Positions 50,040 to 63,585 of a stretch of DNA of 64,000 nt are shown one piece after another. The DNA is from an uncultured Gammaproteobacteria bacterium (GTDB taxonomy: Bacteria > Pseudomonadota > Gammaproteobacteria > Pseudomonadales > Pseudohongiellaceae). The notes beneath the pieces are model-generated. The model saw only the letters and a list, made by a program, of their open reading frames with translations. It searched no databases and was not told where the DNA came from. A program made the position numbers and the translations under genes. Positions within the stretch are counted from its first letter, which is position 1. The number at the start of each line of letters is the position of its first letter. The stretch spans positions 1 to 64,000 of the forward strand of contig CAINTJ010000044.1 in NCBI GenBank assembly GCA_903853385.1. Direction: 5' to 3'.

Positions 50040-50066
50040 TCCATTATGTAGTTGGAGTAATGCTTG

Positions 50067-51668
50067 ATGAAGTTCAGTAGTAAAGCGCACAGATGCGCAG
50101 CTTTGGATGTAGCGGCGCTAGTGTGTGTGTTTGTCGTGGTCATCATCCCCAACCGGCTCGAGTGGATCACGCCCGGCGCCTTCGTATTTCTGCCGCTGGA
50201 GCCGATTGTGGCCGGTCTGTTGCTGGCAGTCAGTGGGTGGGCCGGCCGCGCACTGCGCGCTGTGCTGGCCGTGCTGCTCGCGATCGGTCTGGTGTTCAAG
50301 GTGGCCGATCTCATCGTCTACGAAGTATTCGCACGGCCGTTCAATCCGGTGTTCGATCTGTATTTGCTCGATGATGGCCTGCGGCTGGTCACCGGCGCCT
50401 TTGGCCGCGTCGATGCCATCGTGCTGGCGCTGCTGTTGCTGTTGGTGTTCGCCCTTATTTTCCTGTTGGCATTTGGGGTGCTGGGTCGTTTGCAGCAACG
50501 TCTGCAGCAGAGCCCACGCTATTCGCTGCCGGCACTGGGTGGCTTGCTGGGCCTGTGGCTGGCACTGTACTTGGCGGGGTTCCCCCGCGTGAATACCTAT
50601 TTCTATGACGAAATGGTCGAGCATGTGTCTGCCATCGTGGCCAGCGTGGAAGACATCAAAACCTTCGCGGCCACCGTCAATGATGACAAGTTTGCCACCA
50701 CCAACGGCGAGCAGCTGCTCACCAAGCTGCGTGGCAAGGATGTGCTGGTGATCTTCGTCGAGTCCTATGGCCGCACAGTGTTTGATGATGCCGAGTTTGC
50801 CAAGGACATCAAACCCAGCTTTGAACAAGCCGGTTTTCAGCTGTCGCTCAATGGCTTGCAGGTGCGCACCGCCTACCTCACGTCGCCCACCGTGGGCGGC
50901 ATCAGTTGGTTGGCGCATGGCACCTTGTTGTCGGGGTTGTGGATCAACAGCCAGCTGCGCTATGACTCGCTGGTGCTCAGTGAACGCGCCACTTTGAATC
51001 GCCTGTTCAAGCGTGCCGGCTGGCGCACACTCGGCGTGATGCCGGCCATCAGCATGGCGTGGCCGGAAGGCCAGTATTTCGGTTTCGACCAGATCTACAA
51101 CGCCGGCAATCTCGGCTACAAGGGGCTGCCGTTCAACTGGATCACCATGCCCGATCAATTTGTGATGGCGGCGCTGCAAGGGCTCGAACGTAACCAGAGT
51201 CCGCGCCCGCCGCTGATGGCAGAAATTGCGCTGATCTCGTCGCATGCGCCTTGGACGCCAGTCCCCGAGTTGATCCGCTGGAGTGAAGTGGGTGATGGCA
51301 CTGTCTTCAATGGCCAGGCCGTGGCCGGCCCCGATCCGGATGCCGTGTGGGAAGACACCAATCGCATCCGCACGCAGTACCGGCTGTCCATTGATTACGT
51401 CATTAACACCTTGGCGTCCTATGCGATTCAGTTCGGCGATGACAACCTTGTGATGCTGGTGGTGGGTGATCACCAGCCGGCGCCGCTGGTCACCAACGAC
51501 AGCCCCTCCAATGATGTGCCGGTGCATATCATTGCGCGCGACCCGGCCGTGTTTGCGGCGATTGCCGACTGGCACTGGAGCGAAGGTCTGGTGCCGGCCA
51601 GTGATGCGCCGGTGTGGCGCATGGACAGCCTGCGTGACCGGTTCGTAGAGGCGTTTTCAAAACCGTGA
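50067..51668 (+). CDS. Membrane sulfatase/LTA-synthase-like protein
   Basis: A 533-residue inner-membrane protein. Four or five hydrophobic segments fill the first 180 residues; the rest is an extracytoplasmic alkaline-phosphatase-fold domain (VLVIFVESYGRTVF at the metal-nucleophile site, AYLTSPTVGGISWLAHGTLL, ALISSHAPWTP, MLVVGDHQPAPLV). Members transfer phosphoglycerol or phosphoethanolamine groups or act as hydrolases. GGAG lies nine bases before the ATG. With opgG-opgH in the same window, a role in decorating periplasmic glucans or lipids is possible, but it is not linked to them by position. Confidence 0.75.
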   Translation: MKFSSKAHRCAALDVAALVCVFVVVIIPNRLEWITPGAFVFLPLEPIVAGLLLAVSGWAGRALRAVLAVLLAIGLVFKVADLIVYEVFARPFNPVFDLYLLDDGLRLVTGAFGRVDAIVLALLLLLVFALIFLLAFGVLGRLQQRLQQSPRYSLPALGGLLGLWLALYLAGFPRVNTYFYDEMVEHVSAIVASVEDIKTFAATVNDDKFATTNGEQLLTKLRGKDVLVIFVESYGRTVFDDAEFAKDIKPSFEQAGFQLSLNGLQVRTAYLTSPTVGGISWLAHGTLLSGLWINSQLRYDSLVLSERATLNRLFKRAGWRTLGVMPAISMAWPEGQYFGFDQIYNAGNLGYKGLPFNWITMPDQFVMAALQGLERNQSPRPPLMAEIALISSHAPWTPVPELIRWSEVGDGTVFNGQAVAGPDPDAVWEDTNRIRTQYRLSIDYVINTLASYAIQFGDDNLVMLVVGDHQPAPLVTNDSPSNDVPVHIIARDPAVFAAIADWHWSEGLVPASDAPVWRMDSLRDRFVEAFSKP

Positions 51669-51754: not shown

Positions 51755-52228
51755 ATGAACAAGAAGTTTTTCCTGATTTCATTTCTGCTGAGCGTCCTTA
51801 TGTCTACCACTGTGCAAGCCCAAAACTACGGCCCCAACATCTCCCTGGAACAAGCCAAAGTGGTGCTGGCAGCGGCGGAAGCCGAAGCCAGAAAACAAGG
51901 CTGGCCGATGGCCATTGCCGTGGTGGATACCGCCGGCAACCTGGTGGCATTTTCCAAACTCGACAACACCCAGATTGCCAGCGTGAAAATCTCGCAAGGC
52001 AAAGCCAACTCGGCGATCGGTTTCAAACGCCCCACCAAAGCGCTGCAGGATGCGCTGGAAAAAGGCGGTGTGAATCTGCGGGTGTTGAGTCTGGACGGTG
52101 CCGTACCGGCTGAAGGCGGCATTCCGCTGGTACACAATGGCCTGTTCGTTGGCGCCATCGGCGTGTCAGGCATGGCCTCCGATCAGGATGGCGTCGTCGC
52201 TACCGCCGGCGCTGCTGCCCTTAAATAA
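51755..52228 (+). CDS. Exported GlcG/HbpS-family protein
   Basis: A 157-residue protein with a signal peptide (MNKKFFLISFLLSVLMSTTVQA) and a GlcG/HbpS domain: LEQAKVVLAAAEAEARKQGW, AIAVVDTAGNLVAF, then GGIPLVHNGLFVGAIGVSG. HbpS of Streptomyces binds heme, and other members act in cofactor or glycolate metabolism; the function here is unknown. A strong hairpin follows. Confidence 0.85.
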   Translation: MNKKFFLISFLLSVLMSTTVQAQNYGPNISLEQAKVVLAAAEAEARKQGWPMAIAVVDTAGNLVAFSKLDNTQIASVKISQGKANSAIGFKRPTKALQDALEKGGVNLRVLSLDGAVPAEGGIPLVHNGLFVGAIGVSGMASDQDGVVATAGAAALK

Positions 52229-52303: not shown

Positions 52304-53128
52304 TCAAGGCAGTGCCAGCACATCGACATGGCCAACGCTGCAGCTGCCGCTCGTTGCATGGGCCAGCCGGAATTCGCGCCAGTTCGCCAATCGCTTGGCA
52401 TCCAGACCTGGACTGACGGCAACCGCCGCGGCGATGCCGGTGATGAGAGCCTCGACCATGGCGGCATCGGTTGCGCCCAGCAGCCAGGGGCTGCTTGCTG
52501 TTTGTACCTTGAAGCCGGCGTGTGTCAACGCGCTGACCAGATGGCCGCCGGCTTCCGGCCCCAGTGCCAGGCCTGTACCCTTGTCGCGGCGCTGGTCGTC
52601 ATTGAAGGCAGCCAGCACTGCAGCATCATCAGCATGGGGAGGATCCCACACTGTTGTGCCATCGTAATTAAGCGCGGCATAGAGCCCGCTGGCCCAACTG
52701 CCGCGCACAGAGGCTAGTCGTAGCACCAGCGCCTCAATGAATGCCGCTGACATCAAATCGAACAGCGCGGAGGCGGTCACCAGCCGGGCCCCGCCCAGTG
52801 GTAATTCACCAATTACCGTCAAATCACTTTGGTAGTCTTCGATCCGGTAATGTTTGCCATGACGACGCAAGGCTTCATCGAGCAGCGCGCCATCGTGGTC
52901 GACCAGGCGCCATACCAGCCGCTGGGAACCGGGTGCGGCCAATGCGCGCAAAGTGGAGCCGGTGCCGGCGCCGAGATCGACCACGATGGCTTCCCCCGCT
53001 TGTGGTTGCGTATGGGCATCACCCGCCAGGCCAAGCCAGGCCAGCGCTTGTTCGCGTAAATGGGGCGCGCGGGCGCGCTGGTCAGCGGCTTCGCGCAGAT
53101 TCAGCCATTCAACAGAAAATCCACTCAT
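52304..53128 (-). CDS. Class I SAM-dependent methyltransferase
   Basis: A 274-residue protein with motif I VVDLGAGTGSTLRAL and an acidic WRLVDHDGALLDEA at the next strand; GARLVTASALFDLM fits the later motifs. The substrate is unknown. Its ATG overlaps the glycosyltransferase stop by one base, so both are made from one mRNA, transcribed away from the ribA operon. I infer that the two modify the product of that operon. Confidence 0.8.
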   Translation of the reverse strand: MSGFSVEWLNLREAADQRARAPHLREQALAWLGLAGDAHTQPQAGEAIVVDLGAGTGSTLRALAAPGSQRLVWRLVDHDGALLDEALRRHGKHYRIEDYQSDLTVIGELPLGGARLVTASALFDLMSAAFIEALVLRLASVRGSWASGLYAALNYDGTTVWDPPHADDAAVLAAFNDDQRRDKGTGLALGPEAGGHLVSALTHAGFKVQTASSPWLLGATDAAMVEALITGIAAAVAVSPGLDAKRLANWREFRLAHATSGSCSVGHVDVLALP

Positions 53129-54177
53129 CAGACAGTTACTCGGGTTAGTGCTTCACGCACGGTCAAGGCGGTTTGTTGCCAGGTAGGCAAGTTAAGTGCG
53201 GCGGCCTGGGCGCCTGCCTGCAAGCGTCGGCGCAGTCCGGCATCCGTCAGTACAGCTTGCAGGGCGCTGCGCAGTGTATCGACATCGCCGGGCGCTACCA
53301 GCAAACCGGCTGAAACAGGCACCACATCGGGCACAGCACCGGCGCGGGCGGCAATGATCGGCAAGCCGTACGACAGCGCTTCGGCGAACGCCATGCCATA
53401 GCCTTCAAACAAGGACGGCAGTACGAACAGGTCGGCAGCCATATAGTCAGCATGCAAATCGGTGCTGGCGCCGGCAAACGTGATGCGCTGCTGCAGGCCC
53501 AGCGCCTGCACTTGTTGTCTGAGTTGCGCAGACCACCGGGGATCAAAATCACCGCCACCGACCAAACTGGCCTGCCACGGCAGGTGCTGCAGCTGTGCGA
53601 GTGCAGCAATCAGGAGATGGTGGGCCTTGCGCGGCGTGAGCGAGGCCACTGTCAGCAAGCGGGGCGGGTCGCCGTTGCAAGCGGCATGGCCACGGCGATC
53701 GGTGCCCGGCAAGGCGACGGTAATGCGGGATGCCGGCACTGCAAATTGCTTGGTCAGCAGTTGGGCGGTGCAAGTGCTGGTAACGATTACCGCTGTCGCT
53801 GCCGCCAGTGCCCGCTGTTCACTTTGCTGCAGCAAGGCCTGGGTGGGCGCATTGAGTCCGGTTTCCAGTGCCAGTGGATGATGACACAGGGCGCAAAAGT
53901 GCAGGCGCGGGCTGTGTTGGGCCACCACGCCATCCATCACCCCGTAAGCCAGCCCATCCACCAGCACGGTGCTGTGGTCCGGCAAACTGTGCAGCCAGCG
54001 GTCGGTATCGGTTAAATCCGCACTGTCAGGGTGTGGAAAGCCGGCAGCAAGGCGGTGATAGTGGATCGGAAGGCCCAGGCGCTGCAGCTCGAGCAACAGC
54101 CGTCTGTCATAGCCATAGCCGCCGGTCAGACTGGCCAGATCACCCGGAATTGCAAAGTAAACATTGTGCATGCTCAT
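53128..54177 (-). CDS. GT4-family glycosyltransferase
   Basis: A 349-residue GT-B-fold enzyme. The N-terminal VYFAIPGDLASLTGGYGYDR, the central RLLTVASLTPRKAHHLLIAA and the C-terminal donor-site region PSLFEGYGMAFAEALSYGLP are typical of GT4. I start it at 54177 (MSMHNVYFAIPG), since the frame upstream runs into the divergent ribA start and is not conserved. It lies 91 bases from ribA on the opposite strand and probably shares its regulatory region. Donor and acceptor are unknown. Confidence 0.85.
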   Translation of the reverse strand: MSMHNVYFAIPGDLASLTGGYGYDRRLLLELQRLGLPIHYHRLAAGFPHPDSADLTDTDRWLHSLPDHSTVLVDGLAYGVMDGVVAQHSPRLHFCALCHHPLALETGLNAPTQALLQQSEQRALAAATAVIVTSTCTAQLLTKQFAVPASRITVALPGTDRRGHAACNGDPPRLLTVASLTPRKAHHLLIAALAQLQHLPWQASLVGGGDFDPRWSAQLRQQVQALGLQQRITFAGASTDLHADYMAADLFVLPSLFEGYGMAFAEALSYGLPIIAARAGAVPDVVPVSAGLLVAPGDVDTLRSALQAVLTDAGLRRRLQAGAQAAALNLPTWQQTALTVREALTRVTV

Positions 54178-54268
54178 GGCGTGCGCTCGGGGCAGGCCTG
54201 ATGCGGCTTGCCTCGCCCGGAGCCGGGACGTAACATGCCGGTGCAATTCCTGTCTGTATTTTTCCTCA

Positions 54269-54919
54269 ATGTCCAAACCCTCTGTTACTCGTATGGCCTG
54301 TGCCAGAATCCCGACCGAATTCGGGGATTTCCAGCTGTGCTATTACAACAATTCGCTTGATACCAAAGAGCATCTGGCTCTGATCATGGGCGATATTACC
54401 GCGGCTGACTCTGTGCTGGTGCGGGTTCATTCCGAATGCTTCACCGGAGATGTGCTGGGTTCACGCCGTTGTGATTGCGGCGAGCAATTGAAACGTTCGT
54501 TGTCGCTGGTGGCAAGCGAAGGCTTGGGGCTTGTGCTGTACATGCGTCAGGAAGGCCGCGGCATAGGACTGCTGGAAAAACTGCGCGCCTACAATTTGCA
54601 GGATCAGGGCTATGACACGGTGGAAGCCAACCTGATGCTGGGGCACGGTGCCGACGAGCGTGACTACACACTGGCCGCCTGCATGCTGGAAGAGCTGGGT
54701 GTGAAAGGAGTGCGTCTTATCACCAACAATCCCACCAAAATATCCGCACTCAAAGCCAAGGGCATCAATGTGACGGAGCGGGTGCCGCTGGAAATCCCGG
54801 CCAATACCGATAACGCCGGCTATCTGCTCACCAAGCTGCAGCGCATGGATCATCATTTGCACATCCAGCCGGTTGCAGCAGCCAACGGTGAGCCACATGA
54901 ACCTCAATCAACGAATTGA
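54269..54919 (+). CDS. ribA: GTP cyclohydrolase II
   Basis: A 216-residue enzyme that opens GTP to 2,5-diamino-6-ribosylamino-4-pyrimidinone 5'-phosphate. The zinc site is CFTGDVLGSRRCDCGEQL (three Cys), and LYMRQEGRGIGLLEKLRAYN, QDQGYDTVEANLMLG and ITNNPTKISALKAKGI are canonical. There is no DHBP synthase (RibB) domain. The ATG at 54269 is chosen over an upstream frame that reads into the divergent gene. It overlaps the RibD-like gene and is not beside ribE or ribH, so it is probably not the housekeeping riboflavin copy. Confidence 0.93.
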   Translation: MSKPSVTRMACARIPTEFGDFQLCYYNNSLDTKEHLALIMGDITAADSVLVRVHSECFTGDVLGSRRCDCGEQLKRSLSLVASEGLGLVLYMRQEGRGIGLLEKLRAYNLQDQGYDTVEANLMLGHGADERDYTLAACMLEELGVKGVRLITNNPTKISALKAKGINVTERVPLEIPANTDNAGYLLTKLQRMDHHLHIQPVAAANGEPHEPQSTN

Positions 54920-55619
54920 AGACTGGCTGCAGCAGACCCGCACCCGCTTTGCCGACAGCCCGGCTGCCAGTCAGCGTCCCTTTGTCACTCTGTGTTATGC
55001 CCAGAGTCTTGATGGCAGTCTGACCAATCGCGCCGGCGAAAAACTGCAGCTGAGCAGCGTCGCCTCCACCCGCATCACTCATCAGTTGCGCAGCCTGCAT
55101 GACGGCATCATGGTGGGTATAGGCACGGTGCTGTCAGACGATCCGCAACTGACGGTGCGTGAATGGAGCGGCCCGAGCCCACAACCAATAGTACTCGACA
55201 GCCAGCTGCGCATGCCGGCCGCAGCTCGCTTGTGTATGTCCTCCGGCAAACGCTGCTGGGTGTTGACCAGTCAGCAATCCGATGCAGTTGTGCGTGACTA
55301 TGAATTATTAACGGTGGCTGGCACCCAGGCTGGCCAGGTCGATTTGGCGGCCGCGCTGCGCTTGCTGCATCAGCGCGGAATTCGCTCACTGATGGTGGAG
55401 GGCGGTGCCTCGGTGATTACTGCACTGCTGCAAAACCGCCTGGTGGATGCGCTGGTGATGACCGTGGCGCCGCTGATGATCGGCGGTTACAAGGCCGTGG
55501 GCGAACTGGGCCTTTCATCGCAGCAGCCGTTTCCCTCGCTGGCACCTATCCACAGCGAGAAACTCGGCGATGACCTGATTGTCTGGGGTGCGCTCAACTT
55601 TGCGGCAGGTGAGGCATGA
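54897..55619 (+). CDS. RibD C-terminal-type reductase, stand-alone
   Basis: A 240-residue protein of the dihydrofolate-reductase-like RibD_C family: RPFVTLCYAQSLDGSLTN, HQLRSLHDGIMVGIGTVLSD, and IRSLMVEGGASVITALLQN near the end. In riboflavin synthesis this domain reduces the ribosyl side chain to ribityl, normally fused to a deaminase that is absent here. The gene overlaps ribA by 23 bases and the next gene by four. It should act on the RibA product or a derivative. Confidence 0.85.
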   Translation: MNLNQRIEDWLQQTRTRFADSPAASQRPFVTLCYAQSLDGSLTNRAGEKLQLSSVASTRITHQLRSLHDGIMVGIGTVLSDDPQLTVREWSGPSPQPIVLDSQLRMPAAARLCMSSGKRCWVLTSQQSDAVVRDYELLTVAGTQAGQVDLAAALRLLHQRGIRSLMVEGGASVITALLQNRLVDALVMTVAPLMIGGYKAVGELGLSSQQPFPSLAPIHSEKLGDDLIVWGALNFAAGEA

Positions 55620-56668
55620 GCAGTACTGGCATCACTGCCCAACAATTGTGGTTCACGGCTCCCGGTCAGGTGGAGGTCCGCACACTGCTGCTGGAGGCGC
55701 CGGCAGCGGGCATGATGCTGGTGGCGGTAAAGTGTTCAGCGGTCAGCGCCGGTACCGAGCTGCTGGTCTATCGCGGGTTGCTGCCCGACCACATGACCCT
55801 GGATGCCACACTGCCGGGCATGCAACACAATGCCAACTATCCGCTGCAATATGGTTATGCCAGTGTAGGTGAAGTGGTGAATATTGGTGCGGGTGTGGCA
55901 GCACACTGGCTGGGCCAGCGGGTGTTTGCATTCCAGCCACATGCCAGTCATTTTGTGGCTGAGCCCGCGCAAGTCATCGCGGTGCCCGACGACATCAGCA
56001 CGGAGGCCGCGCTGTTCCTGGCCAACATGGAAACCGCGGTGAATCTGGTGCAGGACGGCAATCCGCAGTTGGGTGAACATGCAGTCGTGCTGGGCCAGGG
56101 CATTGTCGGCGTGTTGCTGCTGCAGGTGTTAAGGCAGTTTCCGCTGGCCAGCCTCAATGCGATTGATGCAACAGTCGCCCGCCGCCAGCGCGCGGAAGCA
56201 CTGGGTGCGCATGCGGTGGCCGACCCCGCCGATCCGCAAGCACTGGCCGGGCTGATGCAGCAGCTCGGCCAGCGTGGTGCCGATCTTGTTTTTGAAGTCA
56301 GTGGTGTGCCGGATGCGCTCAATCTGGCAATCAGTCTCGCCGGCTTTGCCAGTCGCATCGTGATTGGCAGTTGGTATGGCAGCAAGAGCGCGCAGATCGC
56401 GCTGGGTGGTGCGGCTCATCGCAATCGTTTGCAGCTCATCACCAGCCAGGTCAGCACGGTGGCACCGGCGTTGAGCGGTCGTTGGGACAAGTCAAGGCGC
56501 TTCACTCTGGCTTGGGAGCTGATTCGCCAGTTACGACCCCAGCAGTGGATCGGTGAGCGGGTGGTGCTGGCCGCCGCCGCTTCCTTGTACCAGCGCTTGC
56601 ATCAGCAGCAGCAAGCCGCCAGCAGTGCGCACGATGTACTGCAAGCAGTTTTCGTTTACGACAATTAA
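55616..56668 (+). CDS. Medium-chain zinc-type dehydrogenase/reductase
   Basis: A 350-residue MDR-superfamily protein: GTELLVYRGLLPDHM, YPLQYGYASVGEVVNIG, the cofactor-binding VVLGQGIVGVLLLQVLRQ and DLVFEVSGVPDALNLAI. The structural-zinc Cys cluster of alcohol dehydrogenases is missing, as in many MDR reductases. It is co-translated with the RibD-type gene (ATGA overlap) and is followed 11 bases later by the PTPS-like gene. Substrate unknown; a pterin or pyrimidine side-chain alcohol is plausible from context. Confidence 0.8.
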   Translation: MSSTGITAQQLWFTAPGQVEVRTLLLEAPAAGMMLVAVKCSAVSAGTELLVYRGLLPDHMTLDATLPGMQHNANYPLQYGYASVGEVVNIGAGVAAHWLGQRVFAFQPHASHFVAEPAQVIAVPDDISTEAALFLANMETAVNLVQDGNPQLGEHAVVLGQGIVGVLLLQVLRQFPLASLNAIDATVARRQRAEALGAHAVADPADPQALAGLMQQLGQRGADLVFEVSGVPDALNLAISLAGFASRIVIGSWYGSKSAQIALGGAAHRNRLQLITSQVSTVAPALSGRWDKSRRFTLAWELIRQLRPQQWIGERVVLAAAASLYQRLHQQQQAASSAHDVLQAVFVYDN

Positions 56669-56679
56669 CCGGAGAGCGT

Positions 56680-57057
56680 ATGTATACCGTTGCAGTCAGT
56701 CGCGAATTCATTGCCAACCACTTCCTGATTGGAGGTGACTGGGGCAGCGAGAATTTTCCGCATGCCCATCACTATGTGGCTGAACTCAGCATCGAGAGTC
56801 CTTCACTGGACCGCCATGGTTATCTGGTCGACATCGTTGAAATCGAAGCGGCACTCAATAACACGGTGGGTTATTTTCGTGACAGCATGCTCAATGACAA
56901 GCCGGAATTTGCGGGACTCAATCCCAGCATAGAACATTTCAGCCGCATCATCTGCGAGCTGCTGCTGGCGCAAATCAAGCCGCCCGGCACCGGTTCGATC
57001 AATGTGAAACTGTGGGAAAACGCCACCTGCTGGGCGGCTTACCGCAGGGCTTTCTGA
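56680..57057 (+). CDS. PTPS/QueD-fold protein with altered active site
   Basis: A 125-residue member of the 6-pyruvoyl-tetrahydropterin synthase / 6-carboxytetrahydropterin synthase family. The zinc histidines are kept: H14 (FIANHFL), H28 and H30 (FPHAHHY). The pterin-anchoring Glu near the end also seems kept (KLWENATCW). The catalytic Cys, four places before the HxH in E. coli QueD, is Glu (E24), and the LDHHYLND triad region reads FRDSMLND, so the catalytic Asp-His pair is gone. It may therefore bind a pterin-like compound but catalyse a different step. It ends the ribA operon. Confidence 0.8.
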   Translation: MYTVAVSREFIANHFLIGGDWGSENFPHAHHYVAELSIESPSLDRHGYLVDIVEIEAALNNTVGYFRDSMLNDKPEFAGLNPSIEHFSRIICELLLAQIKPPGTGSINVKLWENATCWAAYRRAF

Positions 57058-57548
57058 AGCGGCAAGGCCAGCTCCATCACATAGTCATCCATCACATAAC
57101 CATTGCCAATGTCGAACACGGCAGCCTGCACCACACAAAACCCGAGTTTTTCGTAGAAGCCCTTGGCAATGTTTTTTTTGTTCACTTGCAGTTGCAGTGA
57201 TTGTGCCCCGGCGGCTGTGACGAGATCGACAATGGTGGTGATGATGAACCTGCCGGCGCCCTTGCCGTGCCACGCCGGCAACACATAAAGTTTCTCCATT
57301 TTGAACTTGCCGTGGCCGTTATCCACAAAGGCAGAGAATCCCGCAGGAGTTACGTCGTCGTAACACAGCAGATAGTGCACGCCACTCTGTATTTGTTGCT
57401 GCAGCGAAGCGGGGCTGTACATCCACTCCAGCATGAAGTCGATCTGCGGCTGTGCCAAGATGCTGGCATAGGTTTGTGGCCATACCTGCAGGCACAACTC
57501 GCGGATCAGCGGAATGTCATCAACAGTGGCGGGGCGGATCGAATACAT
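57039..57548 (-). CDS. GNAT-family acetyltransferase
   Basis: A 169-residue N-acetyltransferase beginning MYSIRPATVDDIPLIRELCL, with the acetyl-CoA loop LPAWHGKGAGRFIITTIVD and the late LQVNKKNIAKGFYEKLGF. I start it at 57548, where the conserved domain begins. It is convergent with the PTPS-like gene and overlaps it by 19 bases. Substrate unknown; it need not belong to the ribA cluster. Confidence 0.82.
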   Translation of the reverse strand: MYSIRPATVDDIPLIRELCLQVWPQTYASILAQPQIDFMLEWMYSPASLQQQIQSGVHYLLCYDDVTPAGFSAFVDNGHGKFKMEKLYVLPAWHGKGAGRFIITTIVDLVTAAGAQSLQLQVNKKNIAKGFYEKLGFCVVQAAVFDIGNGYVMDDYVMELALPLQKALR

Positions 57549-57737
57549 GATTGCAGGTAATCCCTGAAGCGAAGGTGAGCAGTGTTGGTGGTATGTTACT
57601 TCAAGTATCCAGGATCGCTGCCAGTGCCAGCCTGATCGCCAAGCGTGCAGGATCTGCCAACGGCACGATCGGCAACCGGCATTCTTGCTGGCGCAGGCCG
57701 TGGGCTGGACCACAGATTTCTGACAAATTCATCAGCA

Positions 57738-58721
57738 TCATTTGCCAAGGCGCTGCAGGCGCCACAAACAGGCAAGTCCAAAGCCCAACACCACCACATC
57801 ACGCAAGCGAGTCAAGGCAATCATGCCAAGCGCTGCCGTTGCCGGCAGGTGCAGCAAACGAAACGACCACACCAGTGCCGCTTCCACCGGGCCGATGCCG
57901 CCAGGCAAGGGCAGCAACATCGACAAGCGCATCGACACCAGCATCAATATGAATGCGTTGGGTGAAAGCGACAGCTCCAGCAAGTGCAGCAACAACACCA
58001 GCTCACTCATCAATGCGGCCCACAACAGCAAGGACAACAGCAAGGCCCGCCACAGCAAGCGCTGTCCGTGGCGGAACGCCTGCCGCAAGGCCTCACCGCC
58101 ATGCTGCCAGTGATGCTCGATCCTGCTTTGCTGCGGATGCAGATGAAAGCGAGTTGCTATCGACCTGAATCTGGCCGTGAGCCAGCGTGGCTGCATCAGA
58201 ATCAATGTAGCGGCAGCAACGATGGCCGCTAATGACGCCAGCAAAAGCAGTGCCACATGCAGCCAGTTTTGCGTGGCGAAAGAGGTAAAGCCCAGCAGCA
58301 ACACCAGCGTGAGCAGCGTCAGCATGTTGATGGTGGTTTCACAGAAACGATCAAGGCCGAGTACCAGCACTGCCTGTTGCAGCGGCAATTTGAACACCCG
58401 GTGCAGCCACAATACCTGCAAAGGTTCACCGCCGAATTGCGGGCCGGGGGTCAGGAAATTGATTGCACTGCCGGCTTGGCGGACTTGCACAAGTTGATGC
58501 AGTGGAAGTTCAACCCCGAGCGCGCGCGCCAATGCCTGCCAGCGTAGCGAGGCAAGCAGCAGGATCAGCAGATTCAAGGCCAGCCATGACAGCCAGTTGT
58601 AGCCGGACAGTGAGTGAATGCTGTGGACAATTCCGGCAAACGGCAGCTGGCTCAAGCTCCAGCCGGCCAGCAGTAAAGCCAGTGGCCACAACAAGAGCCA
58701 GAGCTTTGACCAAGGTTGCAT
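57738..58721 (-). CDS. Flippase-like membrane protein (LPG synthase TM family)
   Basis: A 327-residue integral membrane protein with about eight hydrophobic segments, matching the lysylphosphatidylglycerol-synthase transmembrane family (UPF0104): LASLRWQALARALG, then FLTPGPQFGGEPLQVLWL, RFCETTINMLTLLTL, and the C-terminal LLPLPGGIGPVEAALVWSFR. Relatives act as lipid flippases or membrane transferase domains; no soluble catalytic domain is present. Its start overlaps the stop of the phosphatidyltransferase gene (TGATG), so the two are coupled. Confidence 0.82.
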   Translation of the reverse strand: MQPWSKLWLLLWPLALLLAGWSLSQLPFAGIVHSIHSLSGYNWLSWLALNLLILLLASLRWQALARALGVELPLHQLVQVRQAGSAINFLTPGPQFGGEPLQVLWLHRVFKLPLQQAVLVLGLDRFCETTINMLTLLTLVLLLGFTSFATQNWLHVALLLLASLAAIVAAATLILMQPRWLTARFRSIATRFHLHPQQSRIEHHWQHGGEALRQAFRHGQRLLWRALLLSLLLWAALMSELVLLLHLLELSLSPNAFILMLVSMRLSMLLPLPGGIGPVEAALVWSFRLLHLPATAALGMIALTRLRDVVVLGFGLACLWRLQRLGK

Positions 58722-59830
58722 CAGGCCGGGTCCTGGCGGGTGATCACGTCGCCATCGCGTTGCCAGAGGCTCATGCGACCGGTGCCGAATATGATTATCC
58801 CTACTGCTGCAAATAACGTGGTTACTGCTGCAGCACTGGCCAAGTCATAGCCGGGATAAAAATTCAGCAGCAACAGTAGCGCCATGGCACAACTGCGGCC
58901 GGCAATGCCGCCAACAACGCCCAGTCCAGTCAACCAGATCCCCGCTTCAAGCGCGGTGGTGTGGGCAACATCATGAGGTCGCCAGCTGGCCCACAGTGCT
59001 GCCACCAACAACAGGCGTAACAAGGGCAACAATCGTTGTGACGCGTGAGCGGCAAACTGTTGGCATGCAGAGTTGACGCTGTCGATGTTCAGGCGCGCAC
59101 TGACCACCAGCCAGTCAATGCAGAAGCCCAGCAGCAAGGGCAACATGAAGGCAACGCCAGTGACTTGCGATAGCTGGGGTTGTATCGGTGGCCACAGCGC
59201 CGTCGCCACAAATCCCATCTGGGCACCTGCCAGCGTGCGTCGCAAGGCGCTGGGGGGTAACGGCAACACCGGCAAATTGCGGTGATGGCGCCAGCGGATG
59301 CCAAACACAAACAGGTAATAGGCTGCACTTGCCAGTAGATAGGACGGCAGAATCTTGCCGTACTGGATTGCCAATAATGGCGCGATCAGCAGACCGATTG
59401 CGTCATAGCTCGTATCGAGTCGGGAGCCCAAGACTGTGGTCGTGCCGCTGCGACGTGCTAACGCACCATCACAACGATCTCCCAGCGCAGCCAGGGTATA
59501 GCATATCGCTGGCAGGAAACCGGCCAGGCCAGTGCGAGCCGGCAGCCACAAAAAGCCGGCGATAGCGGCAATCAAACCGCCCCGCACCAGGGTCAAGCGG
59601 TTGGCCCAGCCGAGCGAAGTCTGCAAAGGCGCAGTGCCGGAGCTGCGGTTGTGATACCGGTTCACCCAGAGTTGCTGCCAGAGCAAAGCCCACACCAGCA
59701 AGCTTTGCCACAAGCGCTGGCGGGCATCCGGCCAGTTAACAAACAGCAGTGGAGAAATGACGAGCATCAGCAGCAGCAAGCTGCCGAGGAGTGCGGTTAT
59801 GAACAGCTCCTGGCGGAGTTTGCTGTTCAC
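58721..59830 (-). CDS. CDP-alcohol phosphatidyltransferase family protein
   Basis: A 369-residue membrane enzyme with about nine hydrophobic segments. The full family motif is present: DRCDGALARRSGTTTVLGS followed by RLDTSYD, matching D-x2-DG-x2-AR-x8-G-x3-D-x3-D. Such enzymes move a phosphatidyl or similar phospho group from a CDP-alcohol to an acceptor alcohol. It is longer than PgsA or PssA and not either of them. It is coupled to the flippase-like gene. Together they suggest making and moving a lipid, perhaps linked to the neighbouring ribA cluster. Confidence 0.85.
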   Translation of the reverse strand: MNSKLRQELFITALLGSLLLLMLVISPLLFVNWPDARQRLWQSLLVWALLWQQLWVNRYHNRSSGTAPLQTSLGWANRLTLVRGGLIAAIAGFLWLPARTGLAGFLPAICYTLAALGDRCDGALARRSGTTTVLGSRLDTSYDAIGLLIAPLLAIQYGKILPSYLLASAAYYLFVFGIRWRHHRNLPVLPLPPSALRRTLAGAQMGFVATALWPPIQPQLSQVTGVAFMLPLLLGFCIDWLVVSARLNIDSVNSACQQFAAHASQRLLPLLRLLLVAALWASWRPHDVAHTTALEAGIWLTGLGVVGGIAGRSCAMALLLLLNFYPGYDLASAAAVTTLFAAVGIIIFGTGRMSLWQRDGDVITRQDPA

Positions 59831-59837
59831 ACCGCGC

Positions 59838-61949
59838 TCATGCCACAGTCAGGCGAGCGGTGGTATCGATAACTATGGGGCTGTGCAACAACGCCATATA
59901 TTCAGCGGGTACCAGCCAGCTTTCGAGTTTTTCCGGAGAGTCACTGCGCTCGGCTTTGTATTGCGCCAGCTTCAATTCCGGCTCAAAGCTCGACAGCGAG
60001 TTGGCGTCCAGGGGTTTGGTGATCTGGGCGTTGTGCCAGCTGCGGAATTTTTCATCCTTCAACAAAGTACCAAGCGGACAGCTGCCCATGTTGTCGTGGG
60101 CGGCGGCTTCGTTGGCTACTACGGCAGCCACGATTGCGGGATTGCGTCGCTCTTCCGGCGTGTTGAGAATGCCGAAAAAACGCAGGAATTTGCCGAGCCA
60201 ATCTTTGCCGCTGATCCATGACAGCAGTGCCGACAACATCAGGCCGGAGGTGACCGGCAACAGCCAGAAGAACAAGCCGTGGTTGTAATACCAGGTGAGT
60301 CCGGCCGCAGCCAGGCCCAGCGACATATGCCACCGGTGCATCTTGATGGCGACGCCGAGCGAGATGGAGCCATCGTTGCGACGTTGCGGTTTCCAGCCAC
60401 TGTCACTGCCAGTGAGAATTTCCCGCACCATCTGGCTCTGCGCCAGCATCATCACCGGGGCGAACAACGCGGACAGCACGGTTTCCACCAATACGCTCAA
60501 GGTCAGCAGAATCGGGCCGCCATAATCAAAGCAGCGGCGAAAGCTCAGCAGCCCGGAACACCAGGCCAGAAATTTGGGCAACAACACAATTTCCATCGAC
60601 AGTACAAACAGCGTGATGGCGCGCTCGGAGTCAAACACTGGCCAGGTGGGGAACAGTGAACGTTCCGGGAAATAATTGGTGGGTGTGAAACCGGCCTGGA
60701 TTGCCAGCACCATACCTACCACCAACAACATGAACCAGAACAGGGCGCTGGCATAAGCCATGATGCCGGATAAAATGTGCAGCCGATTGGTCAGCGCCAG
60801 CCCACGCGCAAACAGAAAACGTGAATGCTGCAGATTGCCCTGGCACCAGCGACGGTCGCGGACCAGCACATCACTCATCGAGGGTGGTGATTCTTCGTAA
60901 CTTGCTTGCAGATCGGTATCGAAGCGTACACTCCAGCCGGCGCGACGCAACAACGCAGCTTCGATAAAATCATGACTGATCACGTGGCCGCCAAACGGTG
61001 GGTTGCCGGACAATACCGGTAAATGCGCCGCGGAAGCGAAGGCGGCGGTGCGAATGATTGCGTTGTGGCCCCAGAAATTACTGCCGTTGCCGTGCCAGGC
61101 GGCGAGGCCGTTGGCAAACACCGGCCCGTACAAGCGGTTGGCAAATTGCTGCAAGCGGGCATAGAGCGTAGTGCCCAGCACAATATTGGGCAGTGTTTGC
61201 AACAAGCCCAGCGCAGGCTCGGCCTCCAGTCGGCGTGTCATTTCGATCATGGTGGCGCCACTCATGATGCTGTCGGCATCCAGCACCAGCATGGCTTCAT
61301 AGCCGCCACCCCAGCGCATCACCCAGTCAGCAATATTGCCAGCCTTGCGCTCACTGTTCTTGCGGCGATGGCGGTAATAGATCGGACAATCCGGAGAGGC
61401 TGCTTCAATCAATTTCTGGAAAGCATGTTCTTCGCGTAACCACGCTGCTGGATTGGTGGTGTCACTGAGGATGAAAAAGGTAAAGCAGCCGGGCGCTTGT
61501 TGGGCCAGCTCGCTACTCATGGCCTTGAGGCCTGCCATTACCCGCGCCGGGTCTTCGTTGTAGACCGGTGCCAGCACGGCGGTGCGTATGCCCGGCACGC
61601 GATCGTGGATATTGTTAATGCCGAACACATCCTGTTTGACCAGCAACAGAAAACCCAGAATGGCCTGGCAACCAGCAAAGCAGATCCACACGTAGTTGAT
61701 AGAGAACAGTACCAAGAACACCCACTGCACCAGCGTCAGAGTTCCAGTCATTACTTCATGCATTTCCTGGATGCCATAGGCTGACATCTGATAGGTGGCA
61801 GCTATCAGCAACAGGCGTACCAGAATGATTTTGCCATCTTCCCAGAGTCGGAAGCGGCTACGAGCACGCTGGCCCTTGGCATGCAAGGGCTGCCGAGGCA
61901 TTGCTAGAGGCTGCTCAGGCGGCAGGGCGAGACGCGCAGTAGTGGTCAT
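59838..61949 (-). CDS. opgH: Glucan biosynthesis glucosyltransferase H
   Basis: A 703-residue inner-membrane processive GT2 enzyme that makes the beta-1,2 glucan backbone of osmoregulated periplasmic glucans. The metal motif is VLDADSIMSG, followed later by VRDRRWCQGNLQHSRFL (the Q..RW-type motif), with several membrane helices at both ends of the catalytic domain. It follows opgG on the same strand by 63 bases, the usual operon. Confidence 0.95.
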   Translation of the reverse strand: MTTTARLALPPEQPLAMPRQPLHAKGQRARSRFRLWEDGKIILVRLLLIAATYQMSAYGIQEMHEVMTGTLTLVQWVFLVLFSINYVWICFAGCQAILGFLLLVKQDVFGINNIHDRVPGIRTAVLAPVYNEDPARVMAGLKAMSSELAQQAPGCFTFFILSDTTNPAAWLREEHAFQKLIEAASPDCPIYYRHRRKNSERKAGNIADWVMRWGGGYEAMLVLDADSIMSGATMIEMTRRLEAEPALGLLQTLPNIVLGTTLYARLQQFANRLYGPVFANGLAAWHGNGSNFWGHNAIIRTAAFASAAHLPVLSGNPPFGGHVISHDFIEAALLRRAGWSVRFDTDLQASYEESPPSMSDVLVRDRRWCQGNLQHSRFLFARGLALTNRLHILSGIMAYASALFWFMLLVVGMVLAIQAGFTPTNYFPERSLFPTWPVFDSERAITLFVLSMEIVLLPKFLAWCSGLLSFRRCFDYGGPILLTLSVLVETVLSALFAPVMMLAQSQMVREILTGSDSGWKPQRRNDGSISLGVAIKMHRWHMSLGLAAAGLTWYYNHGLFFWLLPVTSGLMLSALLSWISGKDWLGKFLRFFGILNTPEERRNPAIVAAVVANEAAAHDNMGSCPLGTLLKDEKFRSWHNAQITKPLDANSLSSFEPELKLAQYKAERSDSPEKLESWLVPAEYMALLHSPIVIDTTARLTVA

Positions 61950-62012
61950 GGCTTGATGGAGCGGCAGGGTAATTCGGAGCCGCGATTCTACGCGGCCAGC
62001 GGCCGTTTAGCA

Positions 62013-63557
62013 TCACTGGCCGGCGGCCAGCCAGCGGTAGAGGATGGTTTCACCAAGCGGTTTGCCCTGGTAGCGGGTCTGCACGCGGATTTCCGTCATG
62101 GACGCACGCTCAGGATCAAAGGTCATGAACAGGCGGATGCCGTTGGGGCCGTTATGTACTGCCTGGGTTTCCAGCACGCGGCCATTGCTGACGCTGGCCA
62201 CGAATCGCAGCTCATCCAGATTTAAATCCGTCGGCATGTTGGAAAAATCGACGGCCATTTGCGGGAACTGCGTAAAGAGTTTTATACCGGCAGCAGTGCG
62301 GGTAACCCGGCCGAATTTTTCCGGCAGCGGGCTGTCATCAGGCCAGGCCAGATTATAGGCAAATTCGAATGAGGAGCCGGGTTCTAGCGGCTTTTTGGGG
62401 CGCCAGTAGGCAACAATATTGTCATTGGTTTCAATGGAGGTGGGAATTTCCACCAGCACCACGACCCCTTCACCCCAGTCGCCTACCGGGCTTACCCAGG
62501 TGGACGGCCGCTTGTGGTAGTTGGCTTCCAGGTCTTCATAATCACTTTGCTGGCGGGCGCGCTGTATCAGTCCGAATCCGCGGGGATTATTGTCGACAAA
62601 AGCACTGATTTGCAGGGTCTTGGGGTTATTGAGCGGGCGCCAGATGTATTCGCCGGCTCCACTAAGCATCGACAGGCCATTGGAATCATGCACGGCATTG
62701 CGGTAGTCGGGGCCATCGCTGTGGTCCATGCCGCCGAACAAGAACATCGACGTCAGCGAGCCCAGTCCGATATGGCTGAGTTTGGTGCGCGGAAACAGGG
62801 TCGCTTTGATTTCCATACGGGTTGGACTGCCCGGATGGATGGTGAATTGATAGGCGCCGGTCACTCGCAGGCTGTCGAGCAGGGCATGGACCACGATGGC
62901 GTCAGACTTGTTGGCGGGACGTTCGATCCAGAATTGACGAAAAATCGGGTATTCCTCGCCCGTGGGCTCGGCTACGTCAATGGCTAGGCCACGTGCCGAT
63001 AGGCCGTAGTTCTGGCCTTTGGAGACCGCGCGGAAATAACTGGCGCCGGCGAATACCACGAACTCGTCCTGGTACTTCGGCGTGTTGAGTGGATAGTGCA
63101 GGCGAAAGCCCGCGACCTTGTTGAACTCGGCCAGCAAATCAGTGATTTCGGGGCTGGGGGTGACAAAGGTGCTTTTGTCGATCTGGACCGGCTTGGCCAC
63201 GCCGTTTTCAATGGTATGAACACGTATGCCGTAGGTGTAATAAAGCCCGGGGGCGAACATTTCAACTGAGAACGGGGTACGGGTGCCAGCCCACACGGCG
63301 GCTTTTTTGTCGAACCGGATTTGCCGATAGCGGTCGTAATCCAGCTTCTTCAGTTTTTCCGGCACTTCCATCGGGGGAATGAAAGGATGCTCAGACAGGG
63401 CGCGCGCGATATCCAGTACGACATTCGGGCTGAATGTTGGGGTCGTAGCATCAGCGGCAGCAACGCTGGCAATCGGTTCAATTGCCAAGGTGCCCAGCGC
63501 AGCAGTGAGACGAGCCAGGAAACTGCGTCTTTTTAGCAACCGGGATGGAGATGACAT
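62013..63557 (-). CDS. opgG: Periplasmic glucan biosynthesis protein OpgG/OpgD
   Basis: A 514-residue exported beta-sandwich protein needed for glucan branching or release. LDIARALSEHPFIPPMEVPE, YDRYRQIRFDKKAAVW, VHTIENGVAKPVQIDKSTF and GLIQRARQQSDYEDLEANYH are typical. The N-terminus MSSPSRLLKRRSFLARLTAAL has a twin-arginine pattern, which is known for OpgD rather than for the Sec-exported OpgG, so it could be called either. I start it at the ATG at 63557; an ATG 24 bases earlier lies five bases from the tRNA end. Confidence 0.9.
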   Translation of the reverse strand: MSSPSRLLKRRSFLARLTAALGTLAIEPIASVAAADATTPTFSPNVVLDIARALSEHPFIPPMEVPEKLKKLDYDRYRQIRFDKKAAVWAGTRTPFSVEMFAPGLYYTYGIRVHTIENGVAKPVQIDKSTFVTPSPEITDLLAEFNKVAGFRLHYPLNTPKYQDEFVVFAGASYFRAVSKGQNYGLSARGLAIDVAEPTGEEYPIFRQFWIERPANKSDAIVVHALLDSLRVTGAYQFTIHPGSPTRMEIKATLFPRTKLSHIGLGSLTSMFLFGGMDHSDGPDYRNAVHDSNGLSMLSGAGEYIWRPLNNPKTLQISAFVDNNPRGFGLIQRARQQSDYEDLEANYHKRPSTWVSPVGDWGEGVVVLVEIPTSIETNDNIVAYWRPKKPLEPGSSFEFAYNLAWPDDSPLPEKFGRVTRTAAGIKLFTQFPQMAVDFSNMPTDLNLDELRFVASVSNGRVLETQAVHNGPNGIRLFMTFDPERASMTEIRVQTRYQGKPLGETILYRWLAAGQ

Positions 63558-63585
63558 AAGGGGGAATTGTTCCAATGCCATGAAA

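Follow-up and report, generated by a model that had tools for sequence, protein, structure and literature searches.

In an uncultured gammaproteobacterium of the family Pseudohongiellaceae, a gene cluster appears to encode a biosynthetic pathway that is conserved, has spread horizontally and takes off from the first intermediate of riboflavin synthesis. The cluster lies in a stretch of 64,000 nucleotides, here called the window, from contig CAINTJ010000044.1 of assembly GCA_903853385.1. It unites a GTP cyclohydrolase II (RibA), a stand-alone RibD_C reductase, an MDR-family dehydrogenase and a tunnel-fold protein of the PTPS family with a GT4 glycosyltransferase, a methyltransferase and genes for predicted membrane proteins. 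Taken as a whole, this reading has a slightly better than even chance of being right, and its parts differ in strength. The entry compound is very probably the phosphate of 2,5-diamino-6-ribosylamino- or 6-ribitylamino-pyrimidinone, with the 2-amino group kept.

Organisation of the cluster

The window belongs to contig 44 of a 2.95 Mb genome in 143 contigs, with a listed completeness of 100. Open reading frames were re-derived from the sequence, and families were assigned with Pfam and NCBIfam profiles. Four genes follow one another on the + strand: ribA (54269–54919, ATG start; PF00925, E 1e-67; TIGR00505), the RibD_C reductase, which lacks a deaminase domain (54897–55619; PF01872, E 2e-44; TIGR00227 above cut-off), the MDR gene (55616–56668; PF00107, E 5e-10), and the PTPS gene, whose product carries an ExxxHxH motif (56680–57057; PF01242, E 1e-23). 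RibA and RibD_C overlap by 23 bases and RibD_C and MDR by 4 bases, while 11 bases separate MDR from PTPS, bearing out the tight operon described in the initial annotation of this locus.

On the − strand, the GT4 gene (53128–54177; PF13692, E 2e-28; PF00534) and the gene for a class I S-adenosylmethionine-dependent methyltransferase (52304–53128; placed by Pfam matches of its orthologues) have one base in common. The ATG of the GT4 gene, at 54177, is 91 bases from that of ribA, so that the coupled pair lies where it had been reported. The coupling of a CDP-alcohol phosphatidyltransferase to a flippase-like gene, beyond a GNAT gene, was also confirmed. These two genes, CDP-OH-PT (58721–59830, − strand; PF01066, E 9e-12) and the LPG_synthase_TM or flippase-like gene (LPG_TM; 57738–58721, − strand; PF03706, E 7e-34; TIGR00374 above cut-off), likewise share a single base. 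Comparison with relatives places the start of the conserved unit further upstream than the earlier boundary: a gene at 50064–51668 on the + strand belongs to it, and its predicted fold is that of an LtaS/EptA(MCR)/BcsG-type membrane transferase of the alkaline-phosphatase superfamily, a candidate headgroup transferase.

Conservation and spread

Within the class, a search with the window PTPS protein matched 19 of 274 genomes at E 1e-8, only four of them (its own included) at E < 1e-30. Within the order, 7 of 194 genomes matched at E 1e-12, again counting its own. By these matches, the distribution of the cluster at both ranks is patchy. Six genomes of the order show the full arrangement again, with protein identities of about 39–82%, one of them lacking the LtaS-like gene in the stretch read. 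The cluster occurs, whole or in part, in other gammaproteobacteria, alphaproteobacteria, actinomycetes, Chloroflexota and haloarchaea. On this recurrence, in six genomes of one order and in parts in four further lineages, the layout exceeds chance.

A scan of one public genome per species with a PTPS profile returned at least 509 stretches (tblastn, E 1e-3), some perhaps of other subfamilies, and the best 80 were kept. Well-flanked loci, with at least 6 kb on each side of PTPS, make up 53 of these (44 proteobacterial by record title and 9 from Chloroflexota). The PTPS match was the selection criterion for the 80 loci and its presence in them is not counted; overlap handling dropped PTPS calls in L033, L092, L111, L134 and L142. 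The loci are partly non-independent, L046 and L047 being contigs of one assembly and many others coming from the same genera. RibA counts rely on a profile built from RibA stretches alone, since fusions of RibA with RibD_C distort them.

The 44 well-flanked proteobacterial loci all carry RibD_C, MDR and GT4, followed by CDP-OH-PT (39), RibA, methyltransferase and LPG_TM (35 each) and the LtaS-like gene (28). In the nine from Chloroflexota, the counts are MDR 9, GT4 9, methyltransferase 4, RibD_C 3, RibA 2, LPG_TM 2, CDP-OH-PT 1 and LtaS-like 0. Where both MDR and PTPS were found, they lie less than 200 bases apart on the same strand in 71 of 75 loci. Among the 80 loci, 50 have an LPG_TM orthologue and 33 an LtaS-like orthologue. 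The search for family co-occurrence that had been proposed as a check thus found the glycosyltransferase, methyltransferase and membrane genes strongly conserved in relatives. The closest relative among the matches listed is a gammaproteobacterial metagenome-assembled genome (L042), with a PTPS protein 92% identical. In an Anaerolineae locus (L121) CDP-OH-PT, LPG_TM, MDR, PTPS, GT4, methyltransferase and RibD_C stand consecutively on a single strand. In L029 (11073–12413) and L031 (7004–8302), from two genomes far apart within the class, a single frame encodes both RibA and RibD_C, which supports consecutive steps.

Plasmids carry the cluster as well. Proteobacterial plasmid loci come from Rhizobium (L128), Agrobacterium (L139), Palleronia (L137), a Rhodobacteraceae strain (L138), Methylosinus (L126) and Thiodictyon (L127). 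Those of actinomycetes are from Streptomyces (L125 and L145, unannotated), Microbacterium (L129) and Arthrobacter (L144, unannotated, with MDR, PTPS and GT4); four of six matching Streptomyces plasmid records were examined. Eleven are haloarchaeal (L033–L035, L122–L124, L134, L135 and L140–L142), from 11 of 12 matching plasmid records, the twelfth being a second record of the same strain. PTPS was found by annotation or profile in 20 of 22 plasmid loci, the exceptions being L124 and L140, and plasmid records assign the gene to the queuosine process. CDP-OH-PT and the LtaS-like gene occur together in the Rhizobium, Agrobacterium and Thiodictyon clusters, the LtaS-like orthologue following CDP-OH-PT in Thiodictyon. 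The LPG_TM profile had no match in the plasmid loci, yet L128, L129 and L139 each have such a gene by annotation.

CDP-OH-PT is present in six of the 11 haloarchaeal loci, and three Haloarcula loci have CDP-OH-PT, GTP cyclohydrolase III (GCH III), MDR, PTPS and methyltransferase in consecutive order. Three Haloarcula loci have a further GT4 gene on the other strand (38–40 bits), which was left out of the counts. A Gfo/Idh/MocA oxidoreductase gene precedes CDP-OH-PT in the Haloarcula operons with GCH III (L134, 4072–5421; L141, 3682–5421; L142, 3682–5421).

The entry step and its replacements

By family model and residues, the window RibA is a GTP cyclohydrolase II. It scores 259.8 bits against the TIGR00505 cut-off of 205.85, and the three zinc-binding cysteines are kept in 60, 60 and 61 of 61 aligned RibA rows, the window's included. 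Of the 61, 59 have the Tyr that corresponds to Tyr105 of E. coli RibA (2BZ0). One of the other two rows is truncated and the second, from Streptomyces L125, has Met. Met also occupies this position in L145, the other RibA-bearing Streptomyces locus, and both loci carry a creatininase-family gene. As Spoonamore et al. reportedly found in 2006, the Met-for-Tyr change in Streptomyces SCO6655 makes the enzyme stop at the formylated pyrimidine. A two-sequence profile of the creatininase-family genes, run on 112 loci, matched only L125 and Haloarcula L035 and L123, and none of the loci with a Tyr-type RibA. The creatininase-family enzyme BrbF deformylates the product of GCH III, the same formylated pyrimidine (PMC9478397).

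GCH III itself adjoins MDR in five of the 11 haloarchaeal loci (PF05165; the two that were scanned gave E 2e-82 and 2e-87). It belongs to a different family from RibA and likewise yields the formylated pyrimidine (PMC9478397). Profiles for RibA and RibD_C matched none of the 11 haloarchaeal loci. That three chemically equivalent ways of entry occupy the same genomic slot argues most strongly for 2,5-diamino-6-ribosylamino- or 6-ribitylamino-pyrimidinone phosphate as the starting compound. The window RibA keeps the Tyr, with no creatininase gene adjacent, and should therefore give the deformylated product directly.

The distribution of RibD_C can be read in the same way. In the bacterial route to riboflavin deamination precedes reduction, whereas in the archaeal route the pyrimidine is reduced before it is deaminated. 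The archaeal housekeeping route would thus already supply the reduced, non-deaminated compound, and RibD_C would be expected to be absent from haloarchaeal clusters; because bacteria deaminate first, a need for the same compound would explain the deaminase-free RibD_C in all 44 well-flanked proteobacterial loci. It is kept in the nine of these that have no RibA in reach. A bifunctional RibD is described in both domains in PMC9478397.

A cytochrome b561-type gene stands beside or near RibD_C in alphaproteobacterial and Thiodictyon plasmid clusters (L127, 11528–12085; L128, 12026–12565; L139, 11011–11544), with a PRK11513 match below cut-off. With such a neighbour, the product may have a redox function.

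The PTPS and MDR proteins

The AF2 model of the window PTPS protein (pLDDT 90.5) has its best fold match in SCO6650 (3D7J), followed by QueD. In the profile alignment, Glu24 falls on the catalytic Cys of QueD and Arg67/Asp68 on its Asp-His dyad. Across the 94 sequences of the clade, Glu24 is found in 93 (the other being a gap), and His30 and Glu113 in all 94. At the position of His28, 87 sequences have His, six Asn and one Ala; at that of the QueD dyad His, the clade has Asp, Glu or Asn. The rows with Asn in place of the first His of HxH include six from Chloroflexota, and Chloroflexota L111 shows the same replacement. Glu113 is presumably the pterin-anchoring Glu, by comparison with PTPS structures, and since it is kept, a 2-amino-4-oxo pteridine or pyrimidine should still fit the site. 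As read from these residues, the chemistry of the protein is different from that of QueD, PTPS-II and PTPS-III.

The motifs of these classes are CxxxHGH (PTPS-I), CxxxxxHGH (PTPS-II) and ExxHGH (PTPS-III), as given in PMC5041015. PTPS-I, with its Asp-His dyad, is excluded by the Glu at the Cys position in 93 of 94 rows. PTPS-II, the biopterin type, does not fit a clade whose aligned motif region has no Cys. For PTPS-III, the folate type, the residue three before the first His is Asn in 88 of 94 rows and Gly in five, with one gap, and the Glu lies four before. PTPS-IV is marked by FGPAQ, which 11 of 12 PTPS-IV-like rows carry (one has FGSAQ); the window protein reads WGSEN there. The neighbourhood that goes with PTPS-IV, PF00925 with PF01872, is present in the window, where RibA and RibD_C share an operon with the PTPS gene.

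Most solved relatives of the MDR protein are alcohol or polyol dehydrogenases, including galactitol-1-phosphate dehydrogenase. Residues S44, G46, E48, Y79, G80 and Y81 are invariant in 20 of 20 aligned sequences, and this alignment has no invariant or near-invariant Cys. A zinc-dependent MDR enzyme was rejected, as the catalytic zinc ligands are missing from the positions indicated by the motif of such enzymes. In three Chloroflexota loci (L111, 9287–9973, PF04029, E 7e-39; L117; L119) a ComB-like gene of the 2-phosphosulfolactate-phosphatase family lies between MDR and PTPS.

Decorating and membrane genes

By profile, the nearest structures to the GT4 protein are Tll1590 (6kih), which we take to be of the sucrose-phosphate-synthase type, and D-inositol 3-phosphate and phosphatidylinositol-mannoside glycosyltransferases. 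These are enzymes that, as we understand them, act on sugar or inositol phosphates. The window methyltransferase itself has no Pfam match. Eight of nine orthologues scanned have a Methyltransf match, all eight at E 0.01 and many below the Pfam cut-off, while L134 has none at E 0.001; the assignment to class I S-adenosylmethionine-dependent methyltransferases is thus made through the orthologues rather than the window protein. Two alphaproteobacterial clusters contain an extra FkbM-family methyltransferase (L128, 5151–5906; L137, 4981–5706).

CDP-OH-PT has the motif DxxDGxxAR(x8)GxxxDxxxD, all eight motif residues of which are invariant in 16 of 16 members from five lineages. Its nearest structures are PgsA and PssA, which use CDP-diacylglycerol. 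The protein encoded at 50064–51668 was placed by fold searches only, having no Pfam or NCBIfam match and a family profile that found nothing among PDB sequences at E 0.01. Its model (pLDDT 88.5) is predicted to adopt the LtaS/EptA-type catalytic-domain fold, with VIA-align Z of 20–21 to LtaS, LtaP, MCR-2, GacH and BcsG, the top matches aligning 259–278 residues at a root-mean-square deviation of 3.3–3.8. It resembles the LtaS/LtaP, GacH, EptA/MCR and BcsG phospho-alcohol transferases in this predicted fold, and differs from them in lacking a sequence-level match to any PDB chain at that threshold. LtaS, MCR/EptA, GacH and BcsG are transferases of phospho-alcohol headgroups that work on the outward-facing side of the membrane. 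E233, T276, D469 and H470, candidates for the catalytic Thr and metal ligands, are invariant in 24 of 24 aligned sequences. Orthologues also occur in three alpha- and gammaproteobacterial plasmid clusters (L127, L128 and L139). Among the matches listed, no NCBIfam equivalog reached its cut-off for the MDR, PTPS, methyltransferase, GT4, CDP-OH-PT or LtaS-like members.

The trees of these proteins are discordant. For MDR, PTPS and RibD_C, the window groups with Methylomonas, SAR86-like and Chloroflexota sequences, apart from the PTPS-IV-type clusters (split support 1.000, 1.000 and 0.995). For GT4 and the methyltransferase, it groups with PTPS-IV-type clusters of alphaproteobacteria, Thiodictyon and actinomycetes (support 0.999 and 1.000). 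Mean identities follow the same division: the window GT4 is 42–48% identical to its alpha- and gammaproteobacterial counterparts of the IV type versus 24–26% to those of Methylomonas, SAR86-like genomes and Chloroflexota, and for MDR the corresponding values are 31–34% versus 45–58%. The decorating pair has therefore moved between the two cluster types, and this exchange suggests that their products are related.

A possible pathway

The first step is well supported, by the enzyme family as well as by the swaps: RibA would open GTP to 2,5-diamino-6-(ribosylamino)pyrimidinone 5'-phosphate. The deaminase-free RibD_C would then reduce the ribose to a ribityl chain, by the established chemistry of its family, while the 2-amino group stays. 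MDR may oxidise a hydroxyl of this chain. If the 2'-hydroxyl were oxidised, the 5-amino group could close on the ketone to form dihydroneopterin phosphate, a 7,8-dihydropterin. The PTPS-fold protein, with its anchoring Glu kept and the usual catalytic residues gone, would then bind and reshape the dihydropterin. The formation of a pterin ring is modestly favoured.

GT4 and the methyltransferase would glycosylate and methylate this compound. Their co-conservation with the membrane genes points to further steps, in which CDP-OH-PT may use CDP-diacylglycerol to link the polyol or glycoside to a phospholipid, the LPG_TM protein may help the lipid product across the inner membrane, and the LtaS/EptA-type enzyme may move the headgroup to a periplasmic acceptor or turn the lipid over. 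That the product is lipid-linked is put forward tentatively, its chance falling just short of even.

The earlier proposal that these genes make a decorated pyrimidine or pterin, perhaps joined to a lipid, stands in part: the GTP-derived, non-deaminated entry is strengthened by the GCH III and Met-type RibA swaps, but the window RibA is probably not dedicated to the pathway. A bolder version, unlikely as we see it, is a new class of membrane lipid in Bacteria and Archaea, its headgroup a glycosylated, methylated, redox-active pterin made independently of FolE by RibA, RibD_C, MDR and PTPS. It would sit on the periplasmic or outer face, served in some lineages by cytochrome b561 and the LtaS/EptA-type headgroup transferase, as a membrane-tethered electron carrier or a surface modification.

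Several observations count against the proposed pathway. The loci were drawn with a PTPS profile and the best 80 kept, so the counts lean to close relatives. In the well-flanked Chloroflexota loci, RibD_C is missing from six of nine, RibA from seven and CDP-OH-PT from eight; L042, the nearest relative, has lost the flippase gene; and the membrane genes are often on the strand opposite to the core. Two Natrarchaeobaculum loci have GCH III and MDR, with PTPS not found. Two of the four Streptomyces plasmid loci (L136 and L143) consist of a PTPS-IV-type gene alone, with no partners within 8 kb, and L125 lacks RibD_C by profile. One cluster-bearing genome, G010 (96% complete), has a cluster without RibA and only a degenerate PF00925 protein, no intact GTP cyclohydrolase II being found in it. 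Riboflavin supply could account in part for where RibA sits in the window genome. Oxidation at C2' would lead only back to a dihydroneopterin phosphate that FolE chemistry already provides, so this step needs some other justification.

Alternative explanations

The alternative that survives best, though we regard it as rather improbable, is a soluble glycosylated and methylated pterin or ribityl-pyrimidine (a pigment, ultraviolet screen, signal or redox mediator), with the membrane genes serving a separate lipid function. In the window these genes do lie on the strand opposite to RibA, RibD_C, MDR and PTPS, and of the 53 well-flanked loci, 13 (5 proteobacterial, 8 from Chloroflexota) have no CDP-OH-PT within reach. 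Bacterial pterin glycosides carry no lipid, as far as PMC13259868 and PMC5683033 describe them. However, CDP-OH-PT accompanies the core in gamma- and alphaproteobacteria, actinomycetes, the Anaerolineae run and six of the 11 haloarchaeal loci, and unrelated neighbours would hardly do so across lineages.

A simple riboflavin supply branch, in which RibA and RibD_C serve or raise flavin flux, is much less probable. What speaks for it is the genome's own complement. Two PF00925 proteins are encoded, the cluster RibA and a RibB fusion on contig C112 (L002, 1495–2607), and in the PF00925 domain of the latter the three zinc Cys are replaced by Asp, Leu and Ser and the Tyr by Phe. With these residues lost, the ordinary window RibA, with its zinc Cys and Tyr, is probably the assembly's sole functional GTP cyclohydrolase II; it may feed riboflavin as well and, on the supply account, very likely must. 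The initial annotation had held that its proposal would fall if this RibA were the only such enzyme and the glycosyltransferase, methyltransferase and membrane genes were not conserved beside it. The first half is probably true, given the degenerate second copy, while the second fails, so the two do not hold jointly.

Against such a branch, none of the window genes encodes, by Pfam, a deaminase domain, RibB, RibH or RibE to go with RibA. As that annotation had noted, ribE, ribH and ribB are absent beside the cluster: on C112, RibE (PF00677), RibB with its PF00925 tail, RibH (PF00885) and NusB are grouped together. Next to them is a 371-residue RibD-like frame with PF01872, whose deaminase half was recognised by eye, and a full-length RibD with its own reductase half leaves the extra RibD_C unexplained. 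We know of no role for MDR, PTPS, GT4 or the methyltransferase in riboflavin synthesis. Eight of the nine other genomes with the cluster encode a further PF00925 protein outside it that has the Tyr and all three Cys, so the cluster copy is extra there; the ninth is G010. PF00925 proteins without the three Cys were seen in eight of the nine relatives examined.

A known pterin pathway in disguise, whether for folate (PTPS-III), queuosine (PTPS-I), biopterin (PTPS-II) or F420 (PTPS-IV), is the least probable: the PTPS fold suits it, and PMC5041015 places PTPS-IV in F420 synthesis as unpublished work (Zallot et al.), but the signature is ExxxHxH and not CxxxHGH, CxxxxxHGH, ExxHGH or FGPAQ, the folate and queuosine pathways are rejected because dedicated FolE, FolB and a CxxxHGH QueD (contig C110) are encoded elsewhere in the window genome, and F420 because CofH there reaches 20 bits against a cut-off of 374.

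Relation to known systems

The closest known relative of the proposed pathway is the neighbourhood of the sister family PTPS-IV (FGPAQ; SCO6650, 3D7J). Both have the tunnel fold with PF00925 and PF01872, and MDR, GT4, methyltransferase and CDP-OH-PT accompany PTPS-IV too in the loci read here. The window clade differs in its ExxxHxH motif, with the second metal-binding His in 94 of 94 sequences, where all 12 PTPS-IV-like rows have Ala. Near SCO6650, to go by locus number, is presumably SCO6655, a Streptomyces GTP cyclohydrolase II paralogue. Its reported Met-for-Tyr change is the one seen in both RibA-bearing Streptomyces loci, whereas the window RibA keeps the Tyr and has no adjacent creatininase gene. 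The AGeNNT paper of 2017 places PF00925 and PF01872 beside PTPS-IV and reads PF00925 as FolE2; glycosyl, methyl and lipid genes are not named in the section concerned (PMC5445326).

The archaeal entry to riboflavin (ArfA/GCH III, ArfB and ArfC), together with the BrbF formamidase, shares GTP opening and deformylation, as described in PMC9478397, with GCH III and creatininase-family genes present in haloarchaeal and Streptomyces clusters. The clusters differ from it in having MDR, PTPS, GT4 and methyltransferase instead of ribH, ribE and ribB among their annotated neighbours. Cyanobacterial and Chlorobium pterin glycosides (cyanopterin; CtPGT) offer a sugar-decorated pterin, and to our knowledge these systems involve no RibA, RibD_C, CDP-OH-PT or flippase. 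CtPGT also differs in its substrate, tetrahydrobiopterin (PMC5683033).

In the open-access literature, to which the search was confined with subscription papers outside its scope, queries on the wider gene set, pterin-lipids and pterin-glycosides gave no description of the cluster. Relatives of the PTPS protein occur in at least 509 stretches, and in the loci read five bacterial and archaeal lineages share partner genes of that protein. A shared, GTP-derived and probably membrane-bound metabolite would represent a new kind of pterin biology, and the gene swaps predict the first intermediate closely enough for the product of the pathway to be sought by isotope labelling.

Neighbouring genes

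The GNAT gene (57039–57548, − strand) between PTPS and LPG_TM was rejected as a member, since only one of 101 loci scanned, that of the closest relative L042, has an orthologue. An HbpS-like gene with a signal-like N-terminus (51755–52228; PF03928) lies between the LtaS-like and methyltransferase genes; it adjoins the cluster only in L042 and L049 among the 80 genome loci, and is not counted as a member.

Genes of the opgH/opgG (mdoH) type lie near the cluster in the window (59838–63581), in Saccharospirillum and similar loci (L040, L041, L065, L068, L079 and L090) and in Methylosinus (L126, 6079–7881). The headgroup may be passed on to periplasmic glucans as acceptor.

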